A stretch of DNA of 44,768 nt, from NCBI RefSeq assembly GCF_003703975.1, contig NZ_QTJY01000032.1, positions 1 to 44,768 of the forward strand, given 5' to 3'. Of this stretch, positions 10,897 through 28,212 are shown piece after piece. The stretch is from Larkinella soli (lineage in GTDB: Bacteria > Bacteroidota > Bacteroidia > Cytophagales > Spirosomataceae). The notes beneath the pieces were generated by a model that was given only the letters and a program-made list of their open reading frames with translations, did no database searches and had not been told where the DNA came from. Position 1 is the stretch's first letter. Each line of letters begins with the position of its first letter. A program made the translations under genes and the position numbers.

Positions 10897-11373
10897 ATGC
10901 ATTTCGACCAGCACGGCTTTCTGACTCCGTATGGAGTGATAGAAACCGATTTTTCTATTTTTGAACAGGTTTTTGTTTCGGCCTTTCCGGAGTCGACCAC
11001 CCGCCGGGCCTTGTTCGACGGGTTGATGGAGTTCGACGAATGCCTGCAAAAACTGCTTCCCGAGGGCTATTTTCAGTGGATCGACGGCAGCTTTGTGACC
11101 AAAAAGCTGAATCCGGCAGACATCGACCTGGTGACTTTTGTCGACTATCGCTGGTATGAAAGGCAGGAGTCGGCGTTTAATGAGTTGAGAGCCTGGCGCT
11201 TCGACCGGGAGAAGGGAATCGACGGGTATTTCGTGAAGATTTATCCGGAGGATCATCCCCTTGTCAACGGGTATCGATACGATAAAACGGAGTGGGCTTT
11301 TACCTTCTCGAAAACCGCTCCAAAACCGGGTCACCAGAGAAGAAATAAAGGGTTCATTCAGCTAACTTTTTAA
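10897..11373 (+). CDS. Nucleotidyltransferase-fold protein (DUF6932-like)
   Basis: A 158-residue protein with the pol-beta/minimal nucleotidyltransferase active-site signature: FQWIDGSFVTKK, then NPADIDLVTF. This supplies the hGS helix and the DxD metal carboxylates. The N-terminus (MHFDQHGFLTPYGVIETDF) resembles the conserved start of DUF6932-type proteins. It is followed after 5 nt by a 75-aa helical protein. Such tight pairs recall MNT/HEPN toxin-antitoxin modules, in which the nucleotidyltransferase AMPylates and silences a HEPN toxin, but no HEPN RX4-6H motif is visible in the partner. Codon and base use look slightly less GC-rich than the flanks, which may indicate acquisition. Confidence 0.7.
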   Translation: MHFDQHGFLTPYGVIETDFSIFEQVFVSAFPESTTRRALFDGLMEFDECLQKLLPEGYFQWIDGSFVTKKLNPADIDLVTFVDYRWYERQESAFNELRAWRFDREKGIDGYFVKIYPEDHPLVNGYRYDKTEWAFTFSKTAPKPGHQRRNKGFIQLTF

Positions 11374-11378
11374 AACAG

Positions 11379-11606
11379 ATGGATAGACCGACAACTGCAG
11401 AAGAAAGAAACTTGCTGATCCTAAGTACGCTCGAACTGATCGAGCGCACGACCAAGGCCATCGGATATCATCAGTCATTCGAGTCACCCGACCGGTTGGC
11501 TATTGACCAATACACTGAACTTCGCGAAAGACATCTGGCCTTTTTAGCCGAGCTGCTGGAAGATTTCGGCGTAGAAGCCCATCTTTCCGTCAGACAGGCC
11601 GCCTAA
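11379..11606 (+). CDS. Small helical protein, partner of the nucleotidyltransferase-like gene
   Basis: A 75-residue protein of unknown family, predicted almost entirely helical (ERNLLILSTLELIERTTKAI, then DQYTELRERHLAFLAELLEDF). It has no signal peptide and no TM helix. It starts 5 nt after the stop of the preceding gene, so co-translation is likely. Context suggests a complex with that protein. It could be an antitoxin-like cofactor or a degenerate HEPN-type partner, but the sequence gives no direct proof. Confidence 0.6.
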   Translation: MDRPTTAEERNLLILSTLELIERTTKAIGYHQSFESPDRLAIDQYTELRERHLAFLAELLEDFGVEAHLSVRQAA

Positions 11607-11640
11607 CCAATGGCAAGCCGCCAAATCATGAATTAAAAGG

Positions 11641-12033
11641 ATGGAAGTTTCACTACAAAACGAAACACTGGAAAGCCTGGAGGGAGAAATTCGGGACGAA
11701 CCGGATTACGGGGATTTTGTGGGGCAGAAGATTCACGCGCTGCGCAAAACTCCGCTGGGCCGGCTCCGGTCGGAAGACCTGCGGCTGCTGATCGAAAACC
11801 GGGTCTCGCTGCCGTACCTGCTTCCCCTGGCCATCGAAAAACTCCGGAAGAATCTGTTTGAAGAAGGAGATTATTACCCCGGAGACCTTTTACAGAGTGT
11901 GCTGAATCTCAATACCGGCTTCTGGACGAATCACCCGCAGGAATGGCGGCAGGTTCACGAACTGATCCGCTACCGGGAGTTCGAACTGGAGGACCGGCAC
12001 ATTGCCACCGAAACCTTTCTGGAATTATCCTGA
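11641..12033 (+). CDS. CdiI-type contact-dependent inhibition immunity protein, orphan
   Basis: A 130-residue protein that fits the CdiI_2 family pattern: TLESLEGE near the N-terminus, IHALRKTPLGRLRSEDLRLL, LPLAIEKL, then the characteristic EGDYYPGDLLQSVL. These proteins bind and neutralise a cognate CDI or polymorphic toxin tip in the cytoplasm. No toxin, Rhs or two-partner secretion gene is present in the window, so this is an orphan immunity gene. It may give protection against neighbours' toxins or be a remnant of a larger locus. It lies 34 nt after the 75-aa gene, on the same strand, with an AAAAGG stretch just before the ATG. Confidence 0.72.
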   Translation: MEVSLQNETLESLEGEIRDEPDYGDFVGQKIHALRKTPLGRLRSEDLRLLIENRVSLPYLLPLAIEKLRKNLFEEGDYYPGDLLQSVLNLNTGFWTNHPQEWRQVHELIRYREFELEDRHIATETFLELS

Positions 12034-18553: not shown

Positions 18554-19324
18554 TCAGATTACTCTGGATCTGAACAGGTTAAGCACCTCCTCCCGGTAAC
18601 TGACGCCGATCGGCAGTTTATGGCCCTGGTGCGTCTCAATCGTGTTGCCGTCGATGTTCCGGATGCTGGTGAGGCTCACGATGAAGGAGCGGTTGATCCG
18701 CAGGAAATGGGCCTTCGGAAGCAGTTCCTCCAGCCGGGAAAGGGTCATGTGCGGGATCACGGTCCGCTCCCGGGTATGAATTTTGACGTAATCCTTCATC
18801 CCTTCGATAAACACAATCTCGGAACACATGATCTTGACCAGCTTCTTGTTCTCCCGGACCAGGAAGTAGTTTTCGTAGTCGCGGGGTGCGGCACCCGGCC
18901 TTGCCTCCGCCCCTGCTCCACCGGCGGCACGCCGGGCGGGCGGATGCCCGCGTTCGAGGGCAAATTTTTCCCGGACTTTATTGACGGCCCGCACAAACCG
19001 CTCGAATGAGATCGGCTTCAGGAGGTAGTCCGTTACGTCGTAATTATAGCTTTCCACGGCATAATTCGGGTAGGCCGTGGTCATGATGACCTGCGGACGA
19101 AGGGCCGTAAAACTTTCCAGAAACTGCATACCGGTCATTTCGGGCAGCCTGATATCCAGAAAAATCAGGTCCGGCTTATGGGTTTCCATCGCCTGAAAGG
19201 CCGCCACGGCGGTGTCGCAGCGGGCGGCCAGCGAAAGGAAGGGAAGCCGCCTTATGAACTTTTCGAGGACTTCCTGAGCCGGTGGTTCGTCCTCGATGAT
19301 CAGGCAGGATAAAATCTTTTTCAT
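18554..19324 (-). CDS. LytTR-family response regulator
   Basis: A 256-residue protein. The receiver domain (1-120) has the acidic pocket in IIEDEPPA, the phospho-acceptor Asp57 in LIFLDIRLPEM, the switch Thr in MTTAYPNY and the Lys in DYLLKPIS. An Ala/Gly/Arg/Pro-rich linker (about 125-150) leads to a LytTR DNA-binding domain (about 155-250) with IVFIEGMKDYVKIHT, FLRINRSFIV and LPIGVSYRE. Its ATG overlaps the stop of the LytS gene by 4 nt (ATGA), so the pair is translationally coupled; this favours the start at 19324 over one three codons upstream. LytTR proteins bind paired direct repeats, and such a pair lies at 20577-20608 in front of the peptide-export operon. Confidence 0.93.
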   Translation of the reverse strand: MKKILSCLIIEDEPPAQEVLEKFIRRLPFLSLAARCDTAVAAFQAMETHKPDLIFLDIRLPEMTGMQFLESFTALRPQVIMTTAYPNYAVESYNYDVTDYLLKPISFERFVRAVNKVREKFALERGHPPARRAAGGAGAEARPGAAPRDYENYFLVRENKKLVKIMCSEIVFIEGMKDYVKIHTRERTVIPHMTLSRLEELLPKAHFLRINRSFIVSLTSIRNIDGNTIETHQGHKLPIGVSYREEVLNLFRSRVI

Positions 19325-20463
19325 ACTAACCACAGGGTTAACTGGACGCTGTATTCCTGTTCGGAGGGTTCGATCACCAGCCGGTGGCGGTCCGGATACA
19401 GGAACTTCAGCCGTTTCCGGACATTTTCCAGGCCGAGGCCGCCGACCGCCGGGGCGGTCGGCACGGAATCCGACCGGCTGTTCCGTACCGAAAACCGGAG
19501 AAGGTTTGCTTCGGCCTGCACCTGAATGTCGACCCAGGCCGGCCGGCCGGTCCGGTTCAGCCCGTGTTTAAAGGCATTCTCCACGAACATGACCAGCAGA
19601 AAAGGCGGCACCGAATATTCCTGCACTTCTCCTTCCACCGACAGACCGATGCGGACAGGTTTGCGGTGCCGGATGCGTTCGAGCTGAATGTAATCCTTCA
19701 TGAACTGCAGCTCGCGGTCGAGACGGATCAGGTCCGTGCCGGTTTCGTAGAGCGCATACCGCATCATATCCGACAGCCGAACCAGCATCCGGGCGGCCCT
19801 ATCGTCGAGGCCGATGACGCGGGCGTAGATATTATTAAGTGTGTTGAAGAGAAAATGCGGGCTGATCTGGGACCGCAGCAGGTTCAGTTCCAAACGGAGA
19901 TTTTCCTGCTTCAGCCGACGGGCCACCTCATTGTTCCGCAGGCCGTCTTTCGCCAGTTTGAAACAAAGCGGCAAAGCGACGAAATGGAGGTTGAACGCTT
20001 TATGAAAGACGATGGCGTCAATGTTAGAAACCATGTCCGGCAAAGCGGTTCCCAGGTAAATCCGGGCGACACCCACACCGCCGGTTTCCAGTTCGTATCG
20101 CTGGGCAAGGTACGAAATAACGCCCTGGCTCTGGTAAAAAACCACCAGATGAAGAATGATAAGATTGACCAGAAAAGCCTTCCAGCGGCCCCGGTATAAG
20201 GTCAGCGGAGCCACCACATAACCCAGCCAGTAGAATGAGATCAAAATGCCCAGCCAGTGGGAAATATGCATGGCGATGAGGGTAATTTCAGGGATCCCGG
20301 CCGGTAACTCCCTGCGGGTCTGATGAAACGTAATCAGAAACATAAGTGCCCATAGACCGCTATGCAGCAACAGGCGTCCGAAAAGGGTACGTTTTCCGAC
20401 CGAAAGACGATGCGTGATAGGCACAACTATAAAACTATATTTGCTTGCGCAATCATTGAACAA
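19321..20463 (-). CDS. LytS-type membrane histidine kinase
   Basis: A 380-residue kinase of the His_kinase (PF06580) family. The N-terminal 120 residues contain TM helices (LLLHSGLWALMFLITF, GILISFYWLGYVVAPL, FLVNLIILHLVVFYQ, and possibly VALPLCF nearer the kinase core). The phospho-acceptor region is LLRSQISPHFLFNTLNNI, with His203. The ATP-binding part includes PPFLLVMFVENAFKHGL and GGLGLENVRKRL. It is coupled to the LytTR regulator by an ATGA overlap and is divergent from the XRE-HlyD-C39 operon. Kinases paired with LytTR regulators beside peptide exporters often sense the exported peptide, but that is inference here. A -7-like box (TATCTTTG on the minus strand, 20468-20475) is so close that the true start may be internal. 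Confidence 0.9.
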   Translation of the reverse strand: MFNDCASKYSFIVVPITHRLSVGKRTLFGRLLLHSGLWALMFLITFHQTRRELPAGIPEITLIAMHISHWLGILISFYWLGYVVAPLTLYRGRWKAFLVNLIILHLVVFYQSQGVISYLAQRYELETGGVGVARIYLGTALPDMVSNIDAIVFHKAFNLHFVALPLCFKLAKDGLRNNEVARRLKQENLRLELNLLRSQISPHFLFNTLNNIYARVIGLDDRAARMLVRLSDMMRYALYETGTDLIRLDRELQFMKDYIQLERIRHRKPVRIGLSVEGEVQEYSVPPFLLVMFVENAFKHGLNRTGRPAWVDIQVQAEANLLRFSVRNSRSDSVPTAPAVGGLGLENVRKRLKFLYPDRHRLVIEPSEQEYSVQLTLWLV

Positions 20464-20576: not shown

Positions 20577-20608
20577 ATTGGTCGAAGGAGAATCGGGTAT
20601 TGGTCGAA
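20577..20608 (+). promoter_or_regulatory. Paired direct repeat, probable LytTR response-regulator site
   Basis: ATTGGTCGAA occurs at 20577-20586 and again, identically, at 20599-20608, with a 12-bp gap (22 bp start to start). LytTR regulators such as PlnC, ComE and AgrA bind two 9-10-bp direct repeats with about 12 bp between them. The site is 75 bp upstream of the XRE start codon and about 45-75 bp upstream of the predicted transcription start, an activating position. The cognate regulator is likely the one at 18554-19324. Confidence 0.62.
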
Positions 20609-20683: not shown

Positions 20684-20935
20684 ATGCAACAGCTTGCGTT
20701 CAAGGTTCGCAAATTGCGTGAAATTTTCTGTTACTCTCAGGAATACGTCGCTTACCACCTGGGAATCAGCCAGGCGGCTTACAGCAAGAAAGAAACCGGC
20801 CGGACCAGCCTGTCGCTGGTCTGTCTGCAAAAGCTGGCCGAACTGTATCATTTTTCCATCGAGGAGCTGATCAGCTGCCACCCGCAGGAGCTGATCATGA
20901 AGGCCGTCGAGCGCAACCACCCGGCAGCCGCCTGA
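20684..20935 (+). CDS. Small XRE-family helix-turn-helix regulator
   Basis: An 83-residue protein formed almost entirely by one HTH_3 domain: FKVRKLREIFCYSQEYVAYHL, GISQAAYSKKETGRTSLSL (recognition helix region), then LQKLAELYHFSIEELIS. It is the first gene of the operon with the HlyD-like gene (13 nt later) and the C39 exporter. As a promoter-proximal regulator it may control the operon or the peptide gene. No sensor or dimerisation domain is present beyond the HTH. Its target is not known. Confidence 0.85.
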   Translation: MQQLAFKVRKLREIFCYSQEYVAYHLGISQAAYSKKETGRTSLSLVCLQKLAELYHFSIEELISCHPQELIMKAVERNHPAAA

Positions 20936-20948
20936 CCGACCCGACGCG

Positions 20949-22130
20949 ATGGAATCACGTCTTCCGCCCGCCGAGGTGATCGAATTCACGACCGAGGCCT
21001 ACCTCCCGACCGTTTCGGTACGCGGACAGCTGATCTACCTGACCACCGTCCTGGCGGTGACGGCCGCTCTGATCAGTCTTCCCTTCATCCGGACGGAGGT
21101 GTCGGTGCAGAGTCCGGGGCTGGTGCGGCCCCGCTCCGAACGAAATGAGCTTCGCCCGCTGGTGGCTGGTACGCTGGCCGGGGTGGAAGTCCGCGAAAAT
21201 CAGGCCGTGCGGGTCGGACAGCCGCTGTTCCGGCTCCAGACCGACCAGATCGACAGCAAACTTCGTCTGAACCGGGTGCTTCAGGCCGAAAAACGACGCT
21301 TCATCGCCGACCTGGAACGGCTGGTCAGGGGCGCACGGCCGGCTTCCGGTTCCCTCGCCGGTCTGAGCTCCCCGCTCTACCGCCAGCAGTATGAACATTT
21401 CCGGTTTCAGCTCGCGGAATCCGACGAAACCCGCCGGAAACGCAGACGGGAACTTGACCTGAACCGGAAACTTCTGGCCGACAGGGTGATTCCCCGGCAG
21501 GAGTTCGAAGACCGGGCGTTTGCCTTCCGAACGGCGCAGGTCCAGTACCGGGCGCTGGTGGAGCGTCAGCTCAGCGAATGGGAAACGGCGCTGTCCGGGC
21601 ACCGCATGAGCCTCGATGAACTGCGGGCCCAGGAGCAGCAATGGCTGAAGGAACGCGAACTCTACACCCTCCGGGCGCCGGTCGCGGGCAGCATCAGCCA
21701 GTTGTCGGGGAAATACCCCGGCAGTTACGTGCAGGCCGGGGAAGTACTGGGGCTGATTTCACCCGATTCCAACCTGATGGCCGAGTGTTCGGTACCGCCG
21801 AAAGACATCGGTCTGCTGCGGCCCGGCATGAAGGTCCGGGTGCAGGTCGACGCCTTTGATTATAACCAGTGGGGAATGACCACCGGCACCATCACCGAGA
21901 TCAGCAACGACATCATCGTTCCGGAAAAGCAGCCGCCGTATTTCAAAGTCAAATGCCGGCTCGACCGGCATTACCTCGCCCTGCGCGACGGTTACCGGGG
22001 CTACCTCAAAAAAGGGATGAGCCTGCGGGCCCACTTCGTCGTGACGGAACGCAGCCTGTTCGACCTGCTCTACGACAGGGCCGACGACTGGCTGAATCCG
22101 AAAAATAACCCGGCTCCCGGTGAACAATAA
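20949..22130 (+). CDS. HlyD-family membrane fusion protein of the peptide exporter
   Basis: A 393-residue periplasmic adaptor. A short cytoplasmic N-terminus is followed by one TM helix (about 30-50: IYLTTVLAVTAALISLPFI). The first half of the lipoyl/barrel-sandwich domain comes next (GLVRPRSERNELRPLVAGTLAGVEV, VGQPLFRL). Then comes a long helical hairpin (about 95-235), the second lipoyl half (YTLRAPVAGSISQLSGKYPGSYVQAGEVLGLI) and a beta-barrel end. It would link the C39 ABC transporter to a TolC-like outer-membrane channel encoded elsewhere. It lies between the XRE gene and the exporter, 34 nt upstream of the latter. Confidence 0.92.
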   Translation: MESRLPPAEVIEFTTEAYLPTVSVRGQLIYLTTVLAVTAALISLPFIRTEVSVQSPGLVRPRSERNELRPLVAGTLAGVEVRENQAVRVGQPLFRLQTDQIDSKLRLNRVLQAEKRRFIADLERLVRGARPASGSLAGLSSPLYRQQYEHFRFQLAESDETRRKRRRELDLNRKLLADRVIPRQEFEDRAFAFRTAQVQYRALVERQLSEWETALSGHRMSLDELRAQEQQWLKERELYTLRAPVAGSISQLSGKYPGSYVQAGEVLGLISPDSNLMAECSVPPKDIGLLRPGMKVRVQVDAFDYNQWGMTTGTITEISNDIIVPEKQPPYFKVKCRLDRHYLALRDGYRGYLKKGMSLRAHFVVTERSLFDLLYDRADDWLNPKNNPAPGEQ

Positions 22131-22164: not shown

Positions 22165-24342
22165 ATGGCTTTTCCGAAAAAGATAGCGATCCGACAGCAC
22201 GACGTCACCGACTGCGGAGCGGCCTGTCTGGCCTCCGTGGCCGCCTTTTACCGGCTGGTGATTCCGATTTCCCGCATCCGGCAATATGCCTCGACCGACC
22301 GGAAAGGCACCAATGTGCTGGGCCTGATCGAAGCGGCCGAAAAACTGGGGTTTCAGGCCAAAGGCGTCCGGGCCTCGTTTGAGAATCTGGCCGGTATTCC
22401 GAGGCCGGCCATTGCCCACGTCGTCGTTCGGGAGGTGCTGCACCATTATGTGGTCATCTACGAGGTGAGCGCCGGCGGGGTGAAGGTGATGGACCCCGCC
22501 ACCGGCAGCCTCGAAACCTATGACCGCGAGACCTTTCAGACCCTGTGGACGGGTGTTCTGGTCCTGCTGCTGCCCGGCGAAAGCTTTGAAGCCGGAAACC
22601 GCAGGCAACCGGTCCGGAAACGGTTCTGGTCGCTGGCAAGGCCGCATCGCGCAGTCATGATGCAGGCCCTGTTCGGCGCACTGGTGTATACCGTGCTGGG
22701 CCTTTCGACATCCATCTACATGCAGAAAATCGTGGATCATGTCCTGGTGGGCGGCAACCGGAATCTGCTGAACCTCATGAGCGTGGGCATGATCCTCCTT
22801 CTGCTGCTTCAGCTGTACATCGGTTCCATGAAGTCGTTCTTCGCCCTCCGGACCGGCCAGCAGATCGACGCCCGGCTGATCCTGGGTTATTATAAACACC
22901 TGCTGAGGCTTCCCCAGTCGTTCTTCGACTCCATGCGGGTGGGCGAGATTATTTCGCGCATCAACGATGCCGTCAAAATCCGGACGTTCATCAACGATAC
23001 CGCCCTGACGCTGATCGTAAACCTGTTCATCGTGCTGTTTTCGTTCGGGATGATGTTTACCTACGACTGGAAGATGGCGGTTATTATGCTGGCGGTCATC
23101 CCCTTCTACGCCGTCATTTACCTGATCATCAACCGCGTCAACCGGAAAGGACAGCGACGGCTGATGGAAGACGCGGCCGACCTGGAATCCCAGCTGGTCG
23201 AGTCGCTGAATGCCGTCGGAACCATCCGGCGGTTCGGGCTGGAGGAGTTTGCCGACCTGAAAACCGAAACCCGCTTCATCCGGCTCCTCAAAGCCACCTT
23301 CCATTCGGCCTCGGCCTCCGTCTGGGCCGGAAATGCCTCGGAACTGGCCTCCCGGCTGTTTACCATCATCCTGCTGTGGACCGGGGCCGGCTTCGTGCTG
23401 GACAACGACCTGACCCCCGGCGAACTGTTGTCGTTCTATGCCCTCATCGGCTACTTCACCGGCCCGGCCGGGAGCCTGATCGGGGCCAATAAAACCATCC
23501 AGGACGCCCAGATTGCCGCCGACCGCCTGTTCGAGATCATGGACCTGGAACGGGAGTCGGCCGGGGATCGCATCGCCCTGCGGCCGGAAATGATCGGGGA
23601 TATTCATTTCCGGCAGGTTTCGTTCCGGTACGGGACAAGGGTGCAGGTTTTCGACGGGCTCACCCTGACGATACGGAAGGGAGCGATCACGGCCGTGGTC
23701 GGGGAAAGCGGCTCGGGGAAGTCCACGCTGCTGTCCTTGCTGCAAAACCTGTATCCGCTGCAAGAGGGCTCGATTCACATCGGCGACCACGACCTCCGGC
23801 ACCTCAGCCCCGACAGCCTCCGCCGGATCGTCGGGGTGGTGCCGCAGCAGATCGACCTGTTTGCCGGAGATGTGGTCGAAAACATTGCCGTCGGCGAGTT
23901 TCAGCCGGATATGGAGCGCATCCTCGATCTCTGCCGCCTGCTGGGTATGACCGAGTTCATCGAGCGGCTGCCCAACGGTTTTCATACCTGGCTGGGTGAA
24001 AACGGAGCCACCCTTTCGGGCGGCCAGCGGCAGCGGATCGCCATTGCCCGGGCGCTTTACCGAAAACCCGAAATTCTGATTCTGGACGAAGCTACTGCCT
24101 CCCTTGACCCGGTGGCGGAGCAGACGGTCCGGGAGGCCGTCCGGCGGTGGCGGGAAGCCGGCCGGACCGTCATCCTCATTGCCCACCGGCTCAGCACGAT
24201 CCTGAATGCCGACCAAGTCCTGGTTCTGGAGCAGGGAAAGCTCGTGGAGCAGGGAACCCACGAGGACCTGCTGCACCGGCAGGGCGCCTATTACCGCCTG
24301 TGGGCTTCGCAGTATCTGCCCGAACAGGCACTGGAGGCATAA
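22165..24342 (+). CDS. Peptidase-containing (C39) ABC exporter for double-glycine peptides
   Basis: A 725-residue bacteriocin-type exporter. The N-terminal C39 peptidase has Gln11 (oxyanion hole), catalytic Cys17 in TDCGAACL, His94 in HHYVVIY and Asp110 in VMDP, so the protease looks active and should cleave after a Gly-Gly leader. Residues 155-440 form the ABC membrane domain. The ATPase has Walker A GESGSGKST (near 513), the signature LSGGQRQRIAIARAL (near 620), Walker B ILILDEATASLD (near 637) and the H-loop IAHRLST (near 671). The gene follows the HlyD gene in one operon. The obvious substrate is the 43-aa peptide encoded 93 nt downstream. Confidence 0.95.
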   Translation: MAFPKKIAIRQHDVTDCGAACLASVAAFYRLVIPISRIRQYASTDRKGTNVLGLIEAAEKLGFQAKGVRASFENLAGIPRPAIAHVVVREVLHHYVVIYEVSAGGVKVMDPATGSLETYDRETFQTLWTGVLVLLLPGESFEAGNRRQPVRKRFWSLARPHRAVMMQALFGALVYTVLGLSTSIYMQKIVDHVLVGGNRNLLNLMSVGMILLLLLQLYIGSMKSFFALRTGQQIDARLILGYYKHLLRLPQSFFDSMRVGEIISRINDAVKIRTFINDTALTLIVNLFIVLFSFGMMFTYDWKMAVIMLAVIPFYAVIYLIINRVNRKGQRRLMEDAADLESQLVESLNAVGTIRRFGLEEFADLKTETRFIRLLKATFHSASASVWAGNASELASRLFTIILLWTGAGFVLDNDLTPGELLSFYALIGYFTGPAGSLIGANKTIQDAQIAADRLFEIMDLERESAGDRIALRPEMIGDIHFRQVSFRYGTRVQVFDGLTLTIRKGAITAVVGESGSGKSTLLSLLQNLYPLQEGSIHIGDHDLRHLSPDSLRRIVGVVPQQIDLFAGDVVENIAVGEFQPDMERILDLCRLLGMTEFIERLPNGFHTWLGENGATLSGGQRQRIAIARALYRKPEILILDEATASLDPVAEQTVREAVRRWREAGRTVILIAHRLSTILNADQVLVLEQGKLVEQGTHEDLLHRQGAYYRLWASQYLPEQALEA

Positions 24343-24359
24343 ATTATAACTACAAGTTG

Positions 24360-24390
24360 TTGATAACCAAATGGTAGCCGCGCAATTTTG
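24360..24390 (+). promoter_or_regulatory. Candidate promoter of the double-glycine peptide gene
   Basis: A TTG (24360-24362) is followed after 20 nt by CAATTTTG (24383-24390), which matches the Bacteroidota -7 consensus TAnnTTTG except at the first base. The predicted start near 24397 would give a leader of about 40 nt. A separate promoter would let the peptide be made in excess of its exporter. Confidence 0.35.
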
Positions 24391-24435
24391 TTTCGTTAAA
24401 TCAATCTTCAACCACCCAATCAATTCCCAAGTACA

Positions 24436-24567
24436 ATGGAAAATCAAAACGCAATGGTGACCCTGAGCAAGGAAGAAATGCAGGAAATCAACGGCGGCTA
24501 CTTCGCCTTTTCGCTGGGTTTTGCCACGCCTGTCTTCAAATTCATCCTCGGCTTCCTCAGGTTCTGA
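24436..24567 (+). CDS. Double-glycine leader peptide (bacteriocin or signal peptide precursor)
   Basis: A 43-codon gene. Residues 1-21 form a classic double-glycine leader ending in LSKEEMQEINGG. Hydrophobic residues stand at -4 (Ile18), -7 (Met15) and -12 (Leu10) from the cleavage point after Gly21, exactly as C39 peptidases require. The predicted core has 22 residues. It begins YFAFSLGF and ends ILGFLRF; it contains seven Phe and one Tyr, two basic residues (Lys35, Arg42), no acidic residue and no Cys. This is an amphipathic or membrane-active composition. The absence of Cys rules out disulfides and lanthionines. It sits between the C39 exporter gene and an intrinsic terminator. No immunity gene is recognisable nearby. 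It could be an antimicrobial, a pheromone sensed by the LytS kinase, or both. Confidence 0.82.
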   Translation: MENQNAMVTLSKEEMQEINGGYFAFSLGFATPVFKFILGFLRF

Positions 24568-24591
24568 TCCCGTTTTGCAGGCGTTTTATCG

Positions 24592-24630
24592 GCGTAAGCG
24601 CCGGACACCGGTCCGGGCTTACGCTTTTTT
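24592..24630 (+). terminator. Intrinsic terminator of the peptide gene
   Basis: The outer stem GCGTAAGC / GCTTACGC (8 bp) and the inner stem CCGGAC / GTCCGG (6 bp, with one bulged G) enclose a 4-nt loop. Six T follow (24625-24630). It lies 24 nt after the peptide stop and isolates the peptide system from the next gene. Confidence 0.88.
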
Positions 24631-24672
24631 AGTATCTTATTATAAGGAGTGGCGATATTCGATTCTTTTTAA

Positions 24673-24729: not shown

Positions 24730-27700
24730 ATGCGTTGCTCAACCGACATACGATTTCGAGCGATAGCGCTCAGTACGGCGATCTGCCTGTTCTCGGTAGC
24801 GGTCTGGACCTCCTGCGGCCGAAGCGTCGAGAAACCGGCAGAGATCGTTGCCCTGGAAAGCCGCCTGCCCGAAAAAGTCGATTACAATCTCCATATCAAG
24901 CCCCTGCTCTCGGACCGCTGCTTTGCCTGCCACGGTCCCGATAAAGCCAAACAGAAAGCCGGCCTGCGGCTCGACATGCCCGACGTGGCTTTCACCGCCC
25001 TCGAAAAATCAGGTAACACCGCCATCGTCCCCGGTAATCTGGCCGAAAGCGAACTGTACCACCGCATCGTCTCGTCGGACCCCGATTACATGATGCCGAC
25101 GCCGGAGTCGCACCTGAGCCTGACCAACGAGGAAAAGGCGCTGATTATCCGCTGGATCGAGCAGGGCGCCGAATACAAACCGCACTGGTCGCTGATCGTT
25201 CCGAAAGTGGCCGAAGTGCCGAAAGTCAAAAACCCGGCCTGGGTGAAAAATGAGATCGACGCCTACGTCCTGAAGAAACTGGAAGAAAAGGGCCTCCGGC
25301 CCGCTCCCGAGGCCGACAAGGCGACGCTGCTGCGCCGGGTGACGCTGGACCTGACCGGTCTGCCGCCCACGGTGGCCGAAGTGGACGCCTTTCTGGCCGA
25401 TAAAAGCCCCGACGCCTACGAAAAAGTAGTGAACCGGCTTCTTCACAGCCCGCAGTACGGCGAACGCCAGGCCGCGGAATGGCTGGATGTGGCCCGGTAT
25501 GCCGATACGCACGGCTATCAGGACGACGGCCTGCGGACCATGTGGCCCTACCGCGACTGGGTCATCCGGGCCTACAACCGTAATCTCCGGTTCGATAAGT
25601 TCATCACCTGGCAGCTGGCGGGCGACATGCTCCCCCATCCCACCCGCAACATGCTCCTGGCGACGGCCTTCAACCGCAATCACCAGCAGAGCCAGGAAGG
25701 CGGTATCGTCGACGAGGAATACCGGGTCGAATACGTGGCCGACCGCGTCAATACCTTCGGCAAGGCCATGCTTGGCCTGACCGTAGAGTGTGCCCGCTGC
25801 CACGACCACAAGTATGACCCCATCAGCCAGAAGGATTATTATTCGCTGTTCGCCTTTTTCAACAATAACAATGAGCGCGGCCAGATTCCCTACGACGGCG
25901 AACCGGCCCCGACCCTGACGCTGACCTCGCCCGAGGTGGAAAAGCAGTTACGGTTTATCCGGACGCAGCTGGCCCCGATCGAGCAGCGGCTGAATCCCAA
26001 CCGGCCCGAATATCAGAAAGCCTTCGGGCAATGGATGGGTTCGGCGGAGCGTTATCCGCCCATTTTCATCAACACCGGCCTGATTGCCCATTATACCTTC
26101 GATGAATCCGACCCCATCGACTTCAAGGCATACGAACATTCGGAGGAAAAGAAGAAAAAGGACGAGGAACGCCGGAAGGAGGACGAAAAGCGGCAGAAAG
26201 AAAATGAGCGCCGGAAACTGGCCGGTCTGCCGGAAATCAAAAAGCCGGTTGTTCCCAAAACCCGCGAAGAACTGGCGAAAGACCCCCGCAACGCCTTCTG
26301 GAACCAGGTAAACGACACCCTTCCCGCGCGGCTGGGGGGCGACCCCGAAAGCCTGCCCTACCAGATTGCCGGAAAAGTGGGCAAAGCGCGGTTCCTGCCG
26401 GGGGACAGTTATATCGAGCTGCCCCGCAAGCTGGGGGTGTTCGAGCGGACGCAGCCCTTTACGATCAGTTCGTGGCTCAACGTTCGGAAGCCGGGCCTGG
26501 AAGGGATGCTGATGGGCCGCTCCGACGGGCCGTTCGACGGCAACCGGGGCTATGAGATCAACCTCCTGCCCGACGGCCGCATCAAGGTAACCCTCAGTCA
26601 CGTCTGGCCCGCCAACAGCCTCGACATCGAGTCGGTCGGGAAGATTCCGTACAAGCAGTGGTTTCATGTGGCGATGACCTACGACGGTTCCAGCCGGGCG
26701 CAGGGCATCCGGCTGTATCTCAACGGGCAGCCGGCGCCCGTCCGGATCGTGACCGACAACCTCTACCACAGCATGGACGAGGGCAAAAACGGAAAGCACT
26801 GGGTACGGTATCCGTTCTTCATCGGGCGCTGGCACGACCATTACATCAAGGATTTTGCAATCGACGAACTGCGGATCTATAACCGCAGCCTCACCCCGCT
26901 CGAAGTGCCGCAGCTGGCCGGCCGGCCCGACGCCCTGACCGCAGCCCTGCGCACGCCCCCGGCCCGCCGGACGCCCGCCCAGCGAACCGGTCTGTATAAC
27001 TATTATGTCACGGTGGTGGATTCGGCCTATCATAAAGCCTTCGGGGAAGCGACGGTTTACCGGAATCAGGAGATCAGGCTATACAACAACTCCGACCAGG
27101 TCATGGTCATGCAGGAGCGGAAATATCCGCGCCGAACCTTCCTGCTTCAGCGCGGGGCCTACGACGCCCCCGGCGCGGAGGTGTCGGCCAACACGCCTAC
27201 GCAGCTGATGCCGTTCCCGGAAGATTACCCGAAAAACCGCCTGGGGCTGGCCCGCTGGCTGCTCCACCCCGACAACTCGCTGTTCAGCCGGGTGATGGTC
27301 AACCGGTTCTGGCAGCAGTATTTCGGGCAGGGCATCGTAAAAAGCAGCGACGACTTCGGCAACCAGGGCGACCTGCCCTCGCATCCCGAACTGCTGGACT
27401 ATCTGGCCGTCCGGTTCCGGGACGGTGCCGGCGGCTCCGGACCCTGGAACGTCAAAGCCTTCCAGAAATTCATTGTCATGTCGGCCACCTACCGGCAGTC
27501 GTCGGTCGTGGACCTGAAGAAACGGGAAGCCGACCCGGACAACCATTATTTCTCGCGGGGGCCCAGCTACCGGCTCTCCGCCGAACAGATCCGCGACAAT
27601 GCGCTGGCCACCGGCGGGCTGCTGACCCGGAAGATCGGCGGGCCGAGCGTCCATCCCTACCAGCCGTCGGGCATCTGGGAGGCCCTGGCAACCCGCAATG

Positions 27701-28212
27701 CCGTCAACTACGTGCAGAACCACGGCGACAGCCTCTACCGGCGGTCGATGTATACGATCTGGAAACGGTCGTCGCCCCCGCCGATGATGCTCAACTTCGA
27801 TGCTTCCGAACGGCACGTCTGCATCGTCCGGCGGCAGAAGACCTCGACCCCCCTGCAGGCGCTGGTGACGCTCAACGATCCGCAGTTCGTCGAAGCCGCC
27901 CGGGTGCTGGCCCAGCGGATTCTCGGCGCGAACGGAACGGCATCCGGAGCAACCGATCCGGAACCGGCCGCAATCGATTTTATGTTCAGGGCAGTGACGA
28001 GCCGCCCGGCCCGCCCGGCGGAGGTCGAACTGATGAAACGGCTTTATTCGGAGGAACTGGCCGACTTCCGGAAAAATCCGAAGCGGGCGGCCGAGTTACT
28101 GACCGTCGGGGAATATCCGGTCGAAAAAGCCGTTCCGGCTACGGAACTGGCCGCCTGGACGGTCGTCGCCAGCACGATTATGAATATGGACGAAGCGATT
28201 ATCAAGCGGTAA
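24730..28212 (+). CDS. PSCyt1-DUF1549-LamG-DUF1553 cytochrome-type protein
   Basis: A 1160-residue exported protein. The N-terminus is a signal sequence ending near VWTSC, a weak lipobox. PSCyt1 (about 50-130) carries the haem motif CFACHGPDKAKQKAGLRLD. DUF1549 follows (about 165-375), with a second CxxCH-like CARCHDHKYDP near 356. A highly charged Lys/Glu stretch (about 470-505) leads to a LamG/concanavalin domain (about 540-740), and DUF1553/PSD1 ends the protein (about 830-1155: NRFWQQYFGQGIV, RLSAEQIRDN, TPLQALVTLNDP). The next gene, DUF1501, starts 17 nt later; this two-gene module is typical of Planctomycetes and some Cytophagales. The system is thought to work on complex carbohydrates or their oxidation, without a proven reaction. 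It is a paralogue of the fragment at 1-620. Confidence 0.93.
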   Translation: MRCSTDIRFRAIALSTAICLFSVAVWTSCGRSVEKPAEIVALESRLPEKVDYNLHIKPLLSDRCFACHGPDKAKQKAGLRLDMPDVAFTALEKSGNTAIVPGNLAESELYHRIVSSDPDYMMPTPESHLSLTNEEKALIIRWIEQGAEYKPHWSLIVPKVAEVPKVKNPAWVKNEIDAYVLKKLEEKGLRPAPEADKATLLRRVTLDLTGLPPTVAEVDAFLADKSPDAYEKVVNRLLHSPQYGERQAAEWLDVARYADTHGYQDDGLRTMWPYRDWVIRAYNRNLRFDKFITWQLAGDMLPHPTRNMLLATAFNRNHQQSQEGGIVDEEYRVEYVADRVNTFGKAMLGLTVECARCHDHKYDPISQKDYYSLFAFFNNNNERGQIPYDGEPAPTLTLTSPEVEKQLRFIRTQLAPIEQRLNPNRPEYQKAFGQWMGSAERYPPIFINTGLIAHYTFDESDPIDFKAYEHSEEKKKKDEERRKEDEKRQKENERRKLAGLPEIKKPVVPKTREELAKDPRNAFWNQVNDTLPARLGGDPESLPYQIAGKVGKARFLPGDSYIELPRKLGVFERTQPFTISSWLNVRKPGLEGMLMGRSDGPFDGNRGYEINLLPDGRIKVTLSHVWPANSLDIESVGKIPYKQWFHVAMTYDGSSRAQGIRLYLNGQPAPVRIVTDNLYHSMDEGKNGKHWVRYPFFIGRWHDHYIKDFAIDELRIYNRSLTPLEVPQLAGRPDALTAALRTPPARRTPAQRTGLYNYYVTVVDSAYHKAFGEATVYRNQEIRLYNNSDQVMVMQERKYPRRTFLLQRGAYDAPGAEVSANTPTQLMPFPEDYPKNRLGLARWLLHPDNSLFSRVMVNRFWQQYFGQGIVKSSDDFGNQGDLPSHPELLDYLAVRFRDGAGGSGPWNVKAFQKFIVMSATYRQSSVVDLKKREADPDNHYFSRGPSYRLSAEQIRDNALATGGLLTRKIGGPSVHPYQPSGIWEALATRNAVNYVQNHGDSLYRRSMYTIWKRSSPPPMMLNFDASERHVCIVRRQKTSTPLQALVTLNDPQFVEAARVLAQRILGANGTASGATDPEPAAIDFMFRAVTSRPARPAEVELMKRLYSEELADFRKNPKRAAELLTVGEYPVEKAVPATELAAWTVVASTIMNMDEAIIKR

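Follow-up and report, generated by a model that had tools for sequence, protein, structure and literature searches.

The streptococcal Com, Blp and Sil systems rely on a double-glycine (GG) peptide that is exported by a C39-type exporter. As far as the available portions of the corresponding reports describe them (PMC6193735, PMC9298176), these systems also possess a LytTR regulator and a direct-repeat operator, and both features recur in the locus analyzed here, which is situated in a 44,768-nucleotide stretch of Larkinella soli DNA (NZ_QTJY01000032.1, positions 1 to 44,768; hereafter "the window"). The window differs from them in that its kinase belongs to another family, its export genes are of the HlyD/Gram-negative type and its regulatory genes are arranged divergently, and a role in sensing would be assigned to its peptide by analogy. 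The bacteroidetocins, according to the available text of PMC6671954, share with our locus an origin in Bacteroidota, a GG leader, an exporter with a double-glycine peptidase domain and, in one case, a net charge of +2; in those loci, too, no immunity gene was identified. However, that source describes a 42-aa mature peptide with four Cys residues, a 15-aa leader, and genes for a thiol oxidoreductase and a TM protein, whereas here the predicted core comprises 22 aa without Cys, the leader comprises 21 aa, and neither a thiol oxidoreductase nor a TM protein is among the operon parts. Class IIb bacteriocins of the lactobin A/cerein 7B family (TIGR03949) have a similar double-glycine leader and short hydrophobic core, but our 43-aa peptide scores only 14.7 against a cut-off of 21.5. 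A two-peptide bacteriocin was also considered and rejected, as a partner peptide was not found in the peptide's own genome at E<=1. Finally, the loci annotated with a bacteriocin-type signal peptide on plasmids pBACSA02 and pAT7 contain an orthologous exporter (60-64% identity), GG peptides and an HTH gene, and in pAT7 a small GG ORF directly follows the exporter, as in the window, albeit with a leader profile score of only 5.3 bits; unlike these loci, the window contains a single peptide and a LytTR pair with an operator, and lacks both a CAAX protease and an adjoining TolC. The peptide/exporter pair is of a known and widespread kind, namely peptides resembling class II bacteriocins that leave the cell through C39/HlyD systems; what is new is the divergent LytTR two-component pair and the tandem ATTGGTCGA operator preceding the exporter genes, which, like the small HTH gene, are absent from the initial annotation.

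The precursor gene (24436..24567, plus strand) begins with ATG and encodes 43 aa (MENQNAMVTLSKEEMQEINGGYFAFSLGFATPVFKFILGFLRF), which can be divided into a leader of 21 aa (24436..24498, MENQNAMVTLSKEEMQEINGG, ending in LSKEEMQEINGG) and a core (YFAFSLGFATPVFKFILGFLRF). The hydrophobic residues ascribed to leader positions -4, -7 and -12 can be read directly from the translation as I(-4), M(-7) and L(-12), and the gap of 93 nt between the exporter stop (24342) and the peptide gene is likewise as originally reported. TIGR01847 assigns the leader 15.6 bits against a cut-off of 15.7. We constructed a separate leader profile from 119 distinct leader ends from orthologous exporter loci (with the window and the loci L062 and L065 excluded), in which the ORF obtained 19.4 bits (E 1.8e-5 among the 373 small window ORFs scanned), compared to 1.8 bits for the runner-up; 60 Markov shuffles supplied 42,952 control ORFs, none of which exceeded 8.9 bits. 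Selection of the training peptides relied on a GG motif also present in this ORF, which favors it, and the shuffled ORFs met the same model. Two half-trained models gave 17.6 and 20.5 bits. The codon adaptation of the ORF is 0.644, versus 0.383 on average when synonymous codons are drawn uniformly, with none of 2000 recoded versions reaching as high a value. Judged by its sequence, 24436-24567 looks like a real gene, tiny and easy to overlook. The terminator proposed to follow it was recovered by RNA folding as an intrinsic terminator-like hairpin with a T-run (24591..24631, plus strand), comprising a 15-bp stem (24591-24625) interrupted by a single bulge and the T-run immediately after it; the 86-nt stretch has an MFE of -28.9 (z -2.05), 8 of 200 shuffles fold equally well, and this hairpin is absent from the list returned by a simple consensus terminator scan. 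The next gene downstream (24730-28212) encodes an unrelated PSCyt1/PSCyt2/PSD1 protein.

The core predicted from the position of the GG motif (24499..24564, plus strand; 22 aa, average mass 2589.1 Da, monoisotopic mass 2587.40 Da) has the composition given in the initial annotation: eight aromatic residues (one Y and seven F), a net charge of +2 (K and R), no D or E, and no C. Its GRAVY value is 1.35, and its C-terminal half is amphipathic, with a helical hydrophobic moment of 0.58. Comparison with 124 distinct cores of relatives shows that the aromatic content (36%) exceeds the highest value found among them (27%); 44 of the 124 have at most 26 residues, 24 lack acidic residues and 13 carry a charge of +2 or more. 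The contrast drawn earlier with Cys-rich peptides of Bacteroidota does not hold in this clade, as 82/124 cores contain no Cys. A search with the precursor against 222 genomes of the family gave matches at E<=0.1 in eight other genomes (five to other GG peptides and three inside large unrelated ORFs) and no homolog of the core; the best match, with 49% identity across residues 3-40, is due mainly to the leader. Plasmids yielded no match. A candidate core homolog among the 124 cores of relatives was rejected, since the best local score was equalled by 69 of 300 shuffled cores. A leader profile that includes the 43-aa peptide itself revealed no second leader-type peptide in its own genome (6.9 Mb) at E<=1. 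Among openly licensed papers on double-glycine peptides, class II bacteriocins, LytTR or pheromones of Bacteroidetes/Bacteroidota or Spirosoma, judged by titles and the beginnings of abstracts, we found none describing this core.

The peptide gene follows, on the same strand, a gene for a C39 peptidase/ABC exporter (PCAT) of 725 aa (22165..24342) with the C39, ABC_membrane and ABC_tran domains. The C39 domain (22186..22578), delimited by Pfam and by an exporter alignment, indeed has the intact residues claimed for it: Cys17, His94 and Asp110, and also Gln11, are invariant among 16 aligned exporters, the 15 others of which are 54-74% identical to that of the window. Both marks of a C39 (PCAT) substrate, namely a double-glycine leader with hydrophobic residues at -4, -7 and -12 and a linked exporter with intact Cys, His and Asp, are found for the 43-aa precursor. 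Upstream of the exporter and in the same orientation are the genes for a small XRE/HTH regulator of 83 aa (20684..20935) and for an HlyD-type periplasmic adaptor of 393 aa (20949..22130), separated by 13 nt; both were identified with Pfam, and the HTH gene would be the first of the presumed operon. The window contains no TolC gene adjoining the exporter, and the best TolC match in the same genome shows 38% identity. A second C39 domain of this genome (G000:C10:116008-116394, L060) lies in a 1056-residue open frame.

Orthologs of the exporter (E <= 1e-220) are present in 75 of 222 genomes of the family and, in a sample spanning the phylum, in 29 of 395 genomes, L. soli included in both. We compared 80 fetched orthologous loci and four from a scan of genome contigs, and dropped L062 (evidently the same contig as L044) and the distant L065 from the leader-profile, locus and core counts. 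The expectation that homologous ORFs would accompany orthologous C39 exporters is borne out at the level of the leader: in two-fold cross-validation 69 of the 82 loci have a plus-strand leader match, and the same intervals near the exporters contain 159 matches on the plus strand versus 4 on the minus strand. The combination of a GG peptide and an exporter is therefore a general arrangement; the 13 loci without a match include some on truncated contigs. Matches are located upstream of the exporter in 63 loci and downstream in 8, and the window, with a single peptide placed after the exporter, is unusual. The leader profile, the gene-like codon usage and the GG peptides at 69/82 orthologous loci indicate that the 43-aa peptide is very probably the substrate of the adjoining exporter; the earlier proposal that it is the natural substrate agrees with these counts and with the lack of another candidate in the genome.

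Other constituents of these loci vary. Of the 20 loci whose exporters are closest to that of the window, 18 have a TolC homolog after the exporter, compared to 19 of 85 overall, and one such protein checked in Pfam matches OEP. Homologs of CPBP/CAAX-type proteases occur in 27 of the 85 loci, the window being among the 85 and having no match; a few are several kb from the exporter, and in L050 the homolog is on the other strand. Putative peptidases of the DUF3267 family were found in 7/85 loci. In L145 (126-947) and L219 one GG peptide (core WYVSLLWGAIEFGSSHN) is repeated in tandem as five near-identical copies spaced by 173-174 nt, and further GG-peptide copies on another contig of the same genome suggest an amplified array broken by assembly. 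Upstream of HlyD, L032, L146 and L158 contain proline-rich GG peptides that form a class of their own (e.g. core LSVIGPIRGPIILPPITFPPIIKPIGPILVPYPLPPLV). Among the matches listed (15 of 88 records), exporter orthologs are found on plasmids of Bacteroidota and rhizobia, the rhizobial ones being 56-58% identical, and transfer of the exporter across phyla is possible. The rhizobial plasmid loci L231 and L232 have small GG-type ORFs near the exporter, with weak leader scores. Elsewhere in the window (10897-12033), a DUF6932 gene is followed by a CdiI_3-type immunity gene, with no toxin partner among the ORFs scanned.

Divergently from the HTH gene, the minus strand encodes a LytS-type histidine kinase (19321..20463), for which PF06580 is the sole Pfam match, and a LytTR response regulator (18554..19333), also assigned by Pfam. 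Between the kinase and HTH genes we found an exact repeat of ATTGGTCGAA at 20577-20586 and 20599-20608, and repeat search together with conservation define a tandem element ATTGGTCGAA-N12-ATTGGTCGAA of period 22 (20577..20608, plus strand). Its conserved part consists of 9-bp ATTGGTCGA repeats 12-13 bp apart, a LytTR-type geometry that fits the spacing of 11-13 bp given for LytTR direct repeats in the available text of PMC6193735. Twenty-five of 40 other places with the HTH gene were examined with ATTGGTCGA pairs of period 20-23. A pair with at most 3 mismatches precedes the HTH gene in 19 of the 25, with 0 of 200 shuffles each as good, although 19 overstates the independence of the cases because near-identical loci (L158/L223, L211/L212, L217/L218) are among them; in the other 6 the operator is weak or absent (5-8 mismatches). 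Counted from the second 9-bp repeat through the ATG, the distance is 79 nt in the window and 76-83 nt in 12 of the 19 other loci; in the other 7, where it was taken up to the point at which the HTH match begins, it is longer (127-140 nt). Homologs of the regulator and kinase are near the HTH gene in 22/25 loci, and at least 19 of the 40 HTH places have a listed kinase within 4 kb. The 40 places comprise 28 in genomes that possess this exporter (19 of them within 20 kb of it) and 12 in genomes that do not.

Several of these counts speak against a tight link between peptide and regulator, as do some from operator searches outside the HTH gene context. The 85 exporter loci contain 18 ATTGGTCGA-type pairs, whereas 30 scrambled probes gave 0-9; thirteen pairs are situated by regulator genes or their upstream regions, and the five apart from any regulator, two of which share one contig, look like chance matches. 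In L. soli the window site is the sole perfect operator at its spacing, three others with 3 mismatches are at the control level, and when one mismatch is allowed at a spacing of 12 bp, no operator is present in the genome. A family-wide scan with these latter settings, which do not match the window's own spacing of 13 bp, yielded 56 sites in 36 of 222 genomes, versus 4 for a reversed control; 30/56 are near a listed HTH gene (within 500 nt), a listed kinase (1.5 kb) or an exporter (9 kb), and 26/56 are not. From these observations we infer that the LytTR regulator probably binds the tandem repeats and controls the operon. A further operator copy in front of the peptide gene itself was sought and rejected, as 24343-24435 contains no direct repeat and no ATTGGTCGA; this interval and the kinase/HTH gap have in common a 10-bp match, GATAACCAAA. 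A consensus promoter scan performed at the level of shuffles, and a pattern search for the -7 motif of Bacteroidota matched one of 20 operator promoters; by eye, TTTG recurs about 35 nt after the second repeat among these promoters. A protein of about 140 aa (CPSYIAKPGAELFGI...), conserved and in one copy (L158) without a Pfam match, often follows the HTH gene (L143, L146, L158, L208, L210, L214, L219), while in the window HlyD comes directly after the HTH gene. In L164, L167, L170 and L171, a LytTR/kinase pair starts within about 100 nt of the end of the exporter on the opposite strand, and a related repeat GTTGGTCGG/GTTGGTCGA of period 21 is found beside the kinase, about 1.9 kb after the exporter. 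Openly licensed papers, judged by titles and the beginnings of abstracts, included none on a LytTR-controlled GG-peptide operon in Bacteroidota.

On balance, we consider it probable that the product of the 43-aa ORF is matured into a small, secreted, class II bacteriocin-like peptide whose production is regulated. The peptide, probably unmodified, would be encoded last in a single presumed transcription unit (HTH regulator, HlyD, C39 exporter, peptide); the C39 domain would cut the precursor after Gly-Gly, the ABC/HlyD machine together with a TolC-type outer-membrane channel encoded elsewhere would deliver the core outside, and the Phe-rich cationic 22-residue core would most likely act as a class II bacteriocin-like membrane-active toxin, with the divergent LytS-type kinase and LytTR regulator controlling the unit via the tandem ATTGGTCGA repeats. 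We favor this reading because precursors of relatives pass TIGR03949, the NCBI class IIb bacteriocin model (4 of 10 chosen, with 2 just below), because CPBP/CAAX genes occur in the loci, and because a Phocaeicola plasmid locus carries a set annotated as 'bacteriocin-type signal sequence', CAAX endopeptidase, HlyD, exporter and TolC; CAAX proteases in bacteriocin loci are tied to immunity, processing or signaling in the available text of PMC9298176. The leader, the codon usage, the GG ORFs at orthologous exporter loci, the status of the peptide as the sole leader-type peptide found in its genome, the GRAVY value and the amphipathic C-terminal half also speak for it. Against it, no CPBP homolog was found among window ORFs of at least 90 aa, comparison of 26 window ORFs with Pfam revealed no immunity family known for peptides of this kind (although the bacteroidetocin loci studied in PMC6671954 have no obvious immunity gene either), TolC does not follow the exporter, the core lacks a homolog, and the 43-aa peptide is below the cut-off of every curated bacteriocin model. 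According to the available text of PMC11879956, no killing was seen with the 'bacteriocin-type' peptides that Treponema denticola secretes. A lanthipeptide or a product of rSAM or ATP-grasp enzymes was rejected, as none of the 26 window ORFs scanned has a corresponding domain and the precursor models score below their cut-offs (e.g. 11.7 bits versus 25 for TIGR04149, rSAM-modified RiPP).

The main competitor of a regulated bacteriocin, which we regard as rather unlikely, is an autoinducer: the core would be read by the neighboring LytS-type kinase, and LytTR and the operator would switch on the peptide's own operon in a ComCDE/Sil-like manner. This would fit a genome without a second leader-type peptide, in which the only perfect operator at this spacing precedes the presumed operon of the peptide, as well as the agreement of the 9-bp repeats with the LytTR sites in the available text of PMC6193735, the short, cationic, Phe-rich core, and the lack of a CPBP gene found nearby. 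However, while a LytTR gene and a direct-repeat operator, marks of a LytTR-linked pheromone of the ComC/AgrD type, are found here (with operon membership and binding presumed), the HATPase_c_5 type described for LytTR quorum-sensing kinases in the available text of PMC8895600 is not, the kinase being of the PF06580 type. Moreover, 12 of the 40 HTH places are in genomes without the exporter, and all five places fetched from such genomes keep the kinase and regulator nearby, so the kinase/HTH module does not need the 43-aa peptide; peptide repertoires elsewhere are also plural and diverse. A minimal signaling loop of Bacteroidota, in which one Phe-rich peptide, one exporter, the LytS/LytTR pair and one perfect operator would suffice for the peptide to induce its own operon via the kinase, we consider less likely again. 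The two roles might be combined in a bacteriocin that induces its own production, for which one could cite the single peptide beside a regulator with a conserved operator and the bacteriocin-type relatives; it meets the same objections as the autoinducer, there is no direct sign of sensing, and we judge it improbable. The upstream peptides and adjoining TolC of close relatives are missing from the window and no homolog of the peptide was found in 8 other genomes of the genus, as would be expected of a decayed leftover with a now idle exporter, but an intact exporter of 725 aa with its catalytic residues, the strong leader score, the gene-like codon usage and the intact operator make such a remnant very improbable. 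Least credible of all is that 24436-24567 is no gene; its length of only 43 codons and the lack of a core homolog would suit a chance ORF, which we nevertheless discard in view of the leader-profile score, the GG ORFs at orthologous exporter loci to which it is linked, and the codon usage.

The locus is unusually simple, with one exporter, one substrate found by the profile, one regulator pair and one perfect operator. The role of the many double-glycine peptides of Bacteroidota, as a weapon, a signal or both, is therefore testable in a single strain, and the conserved operator provides a handle for switching such loci on.
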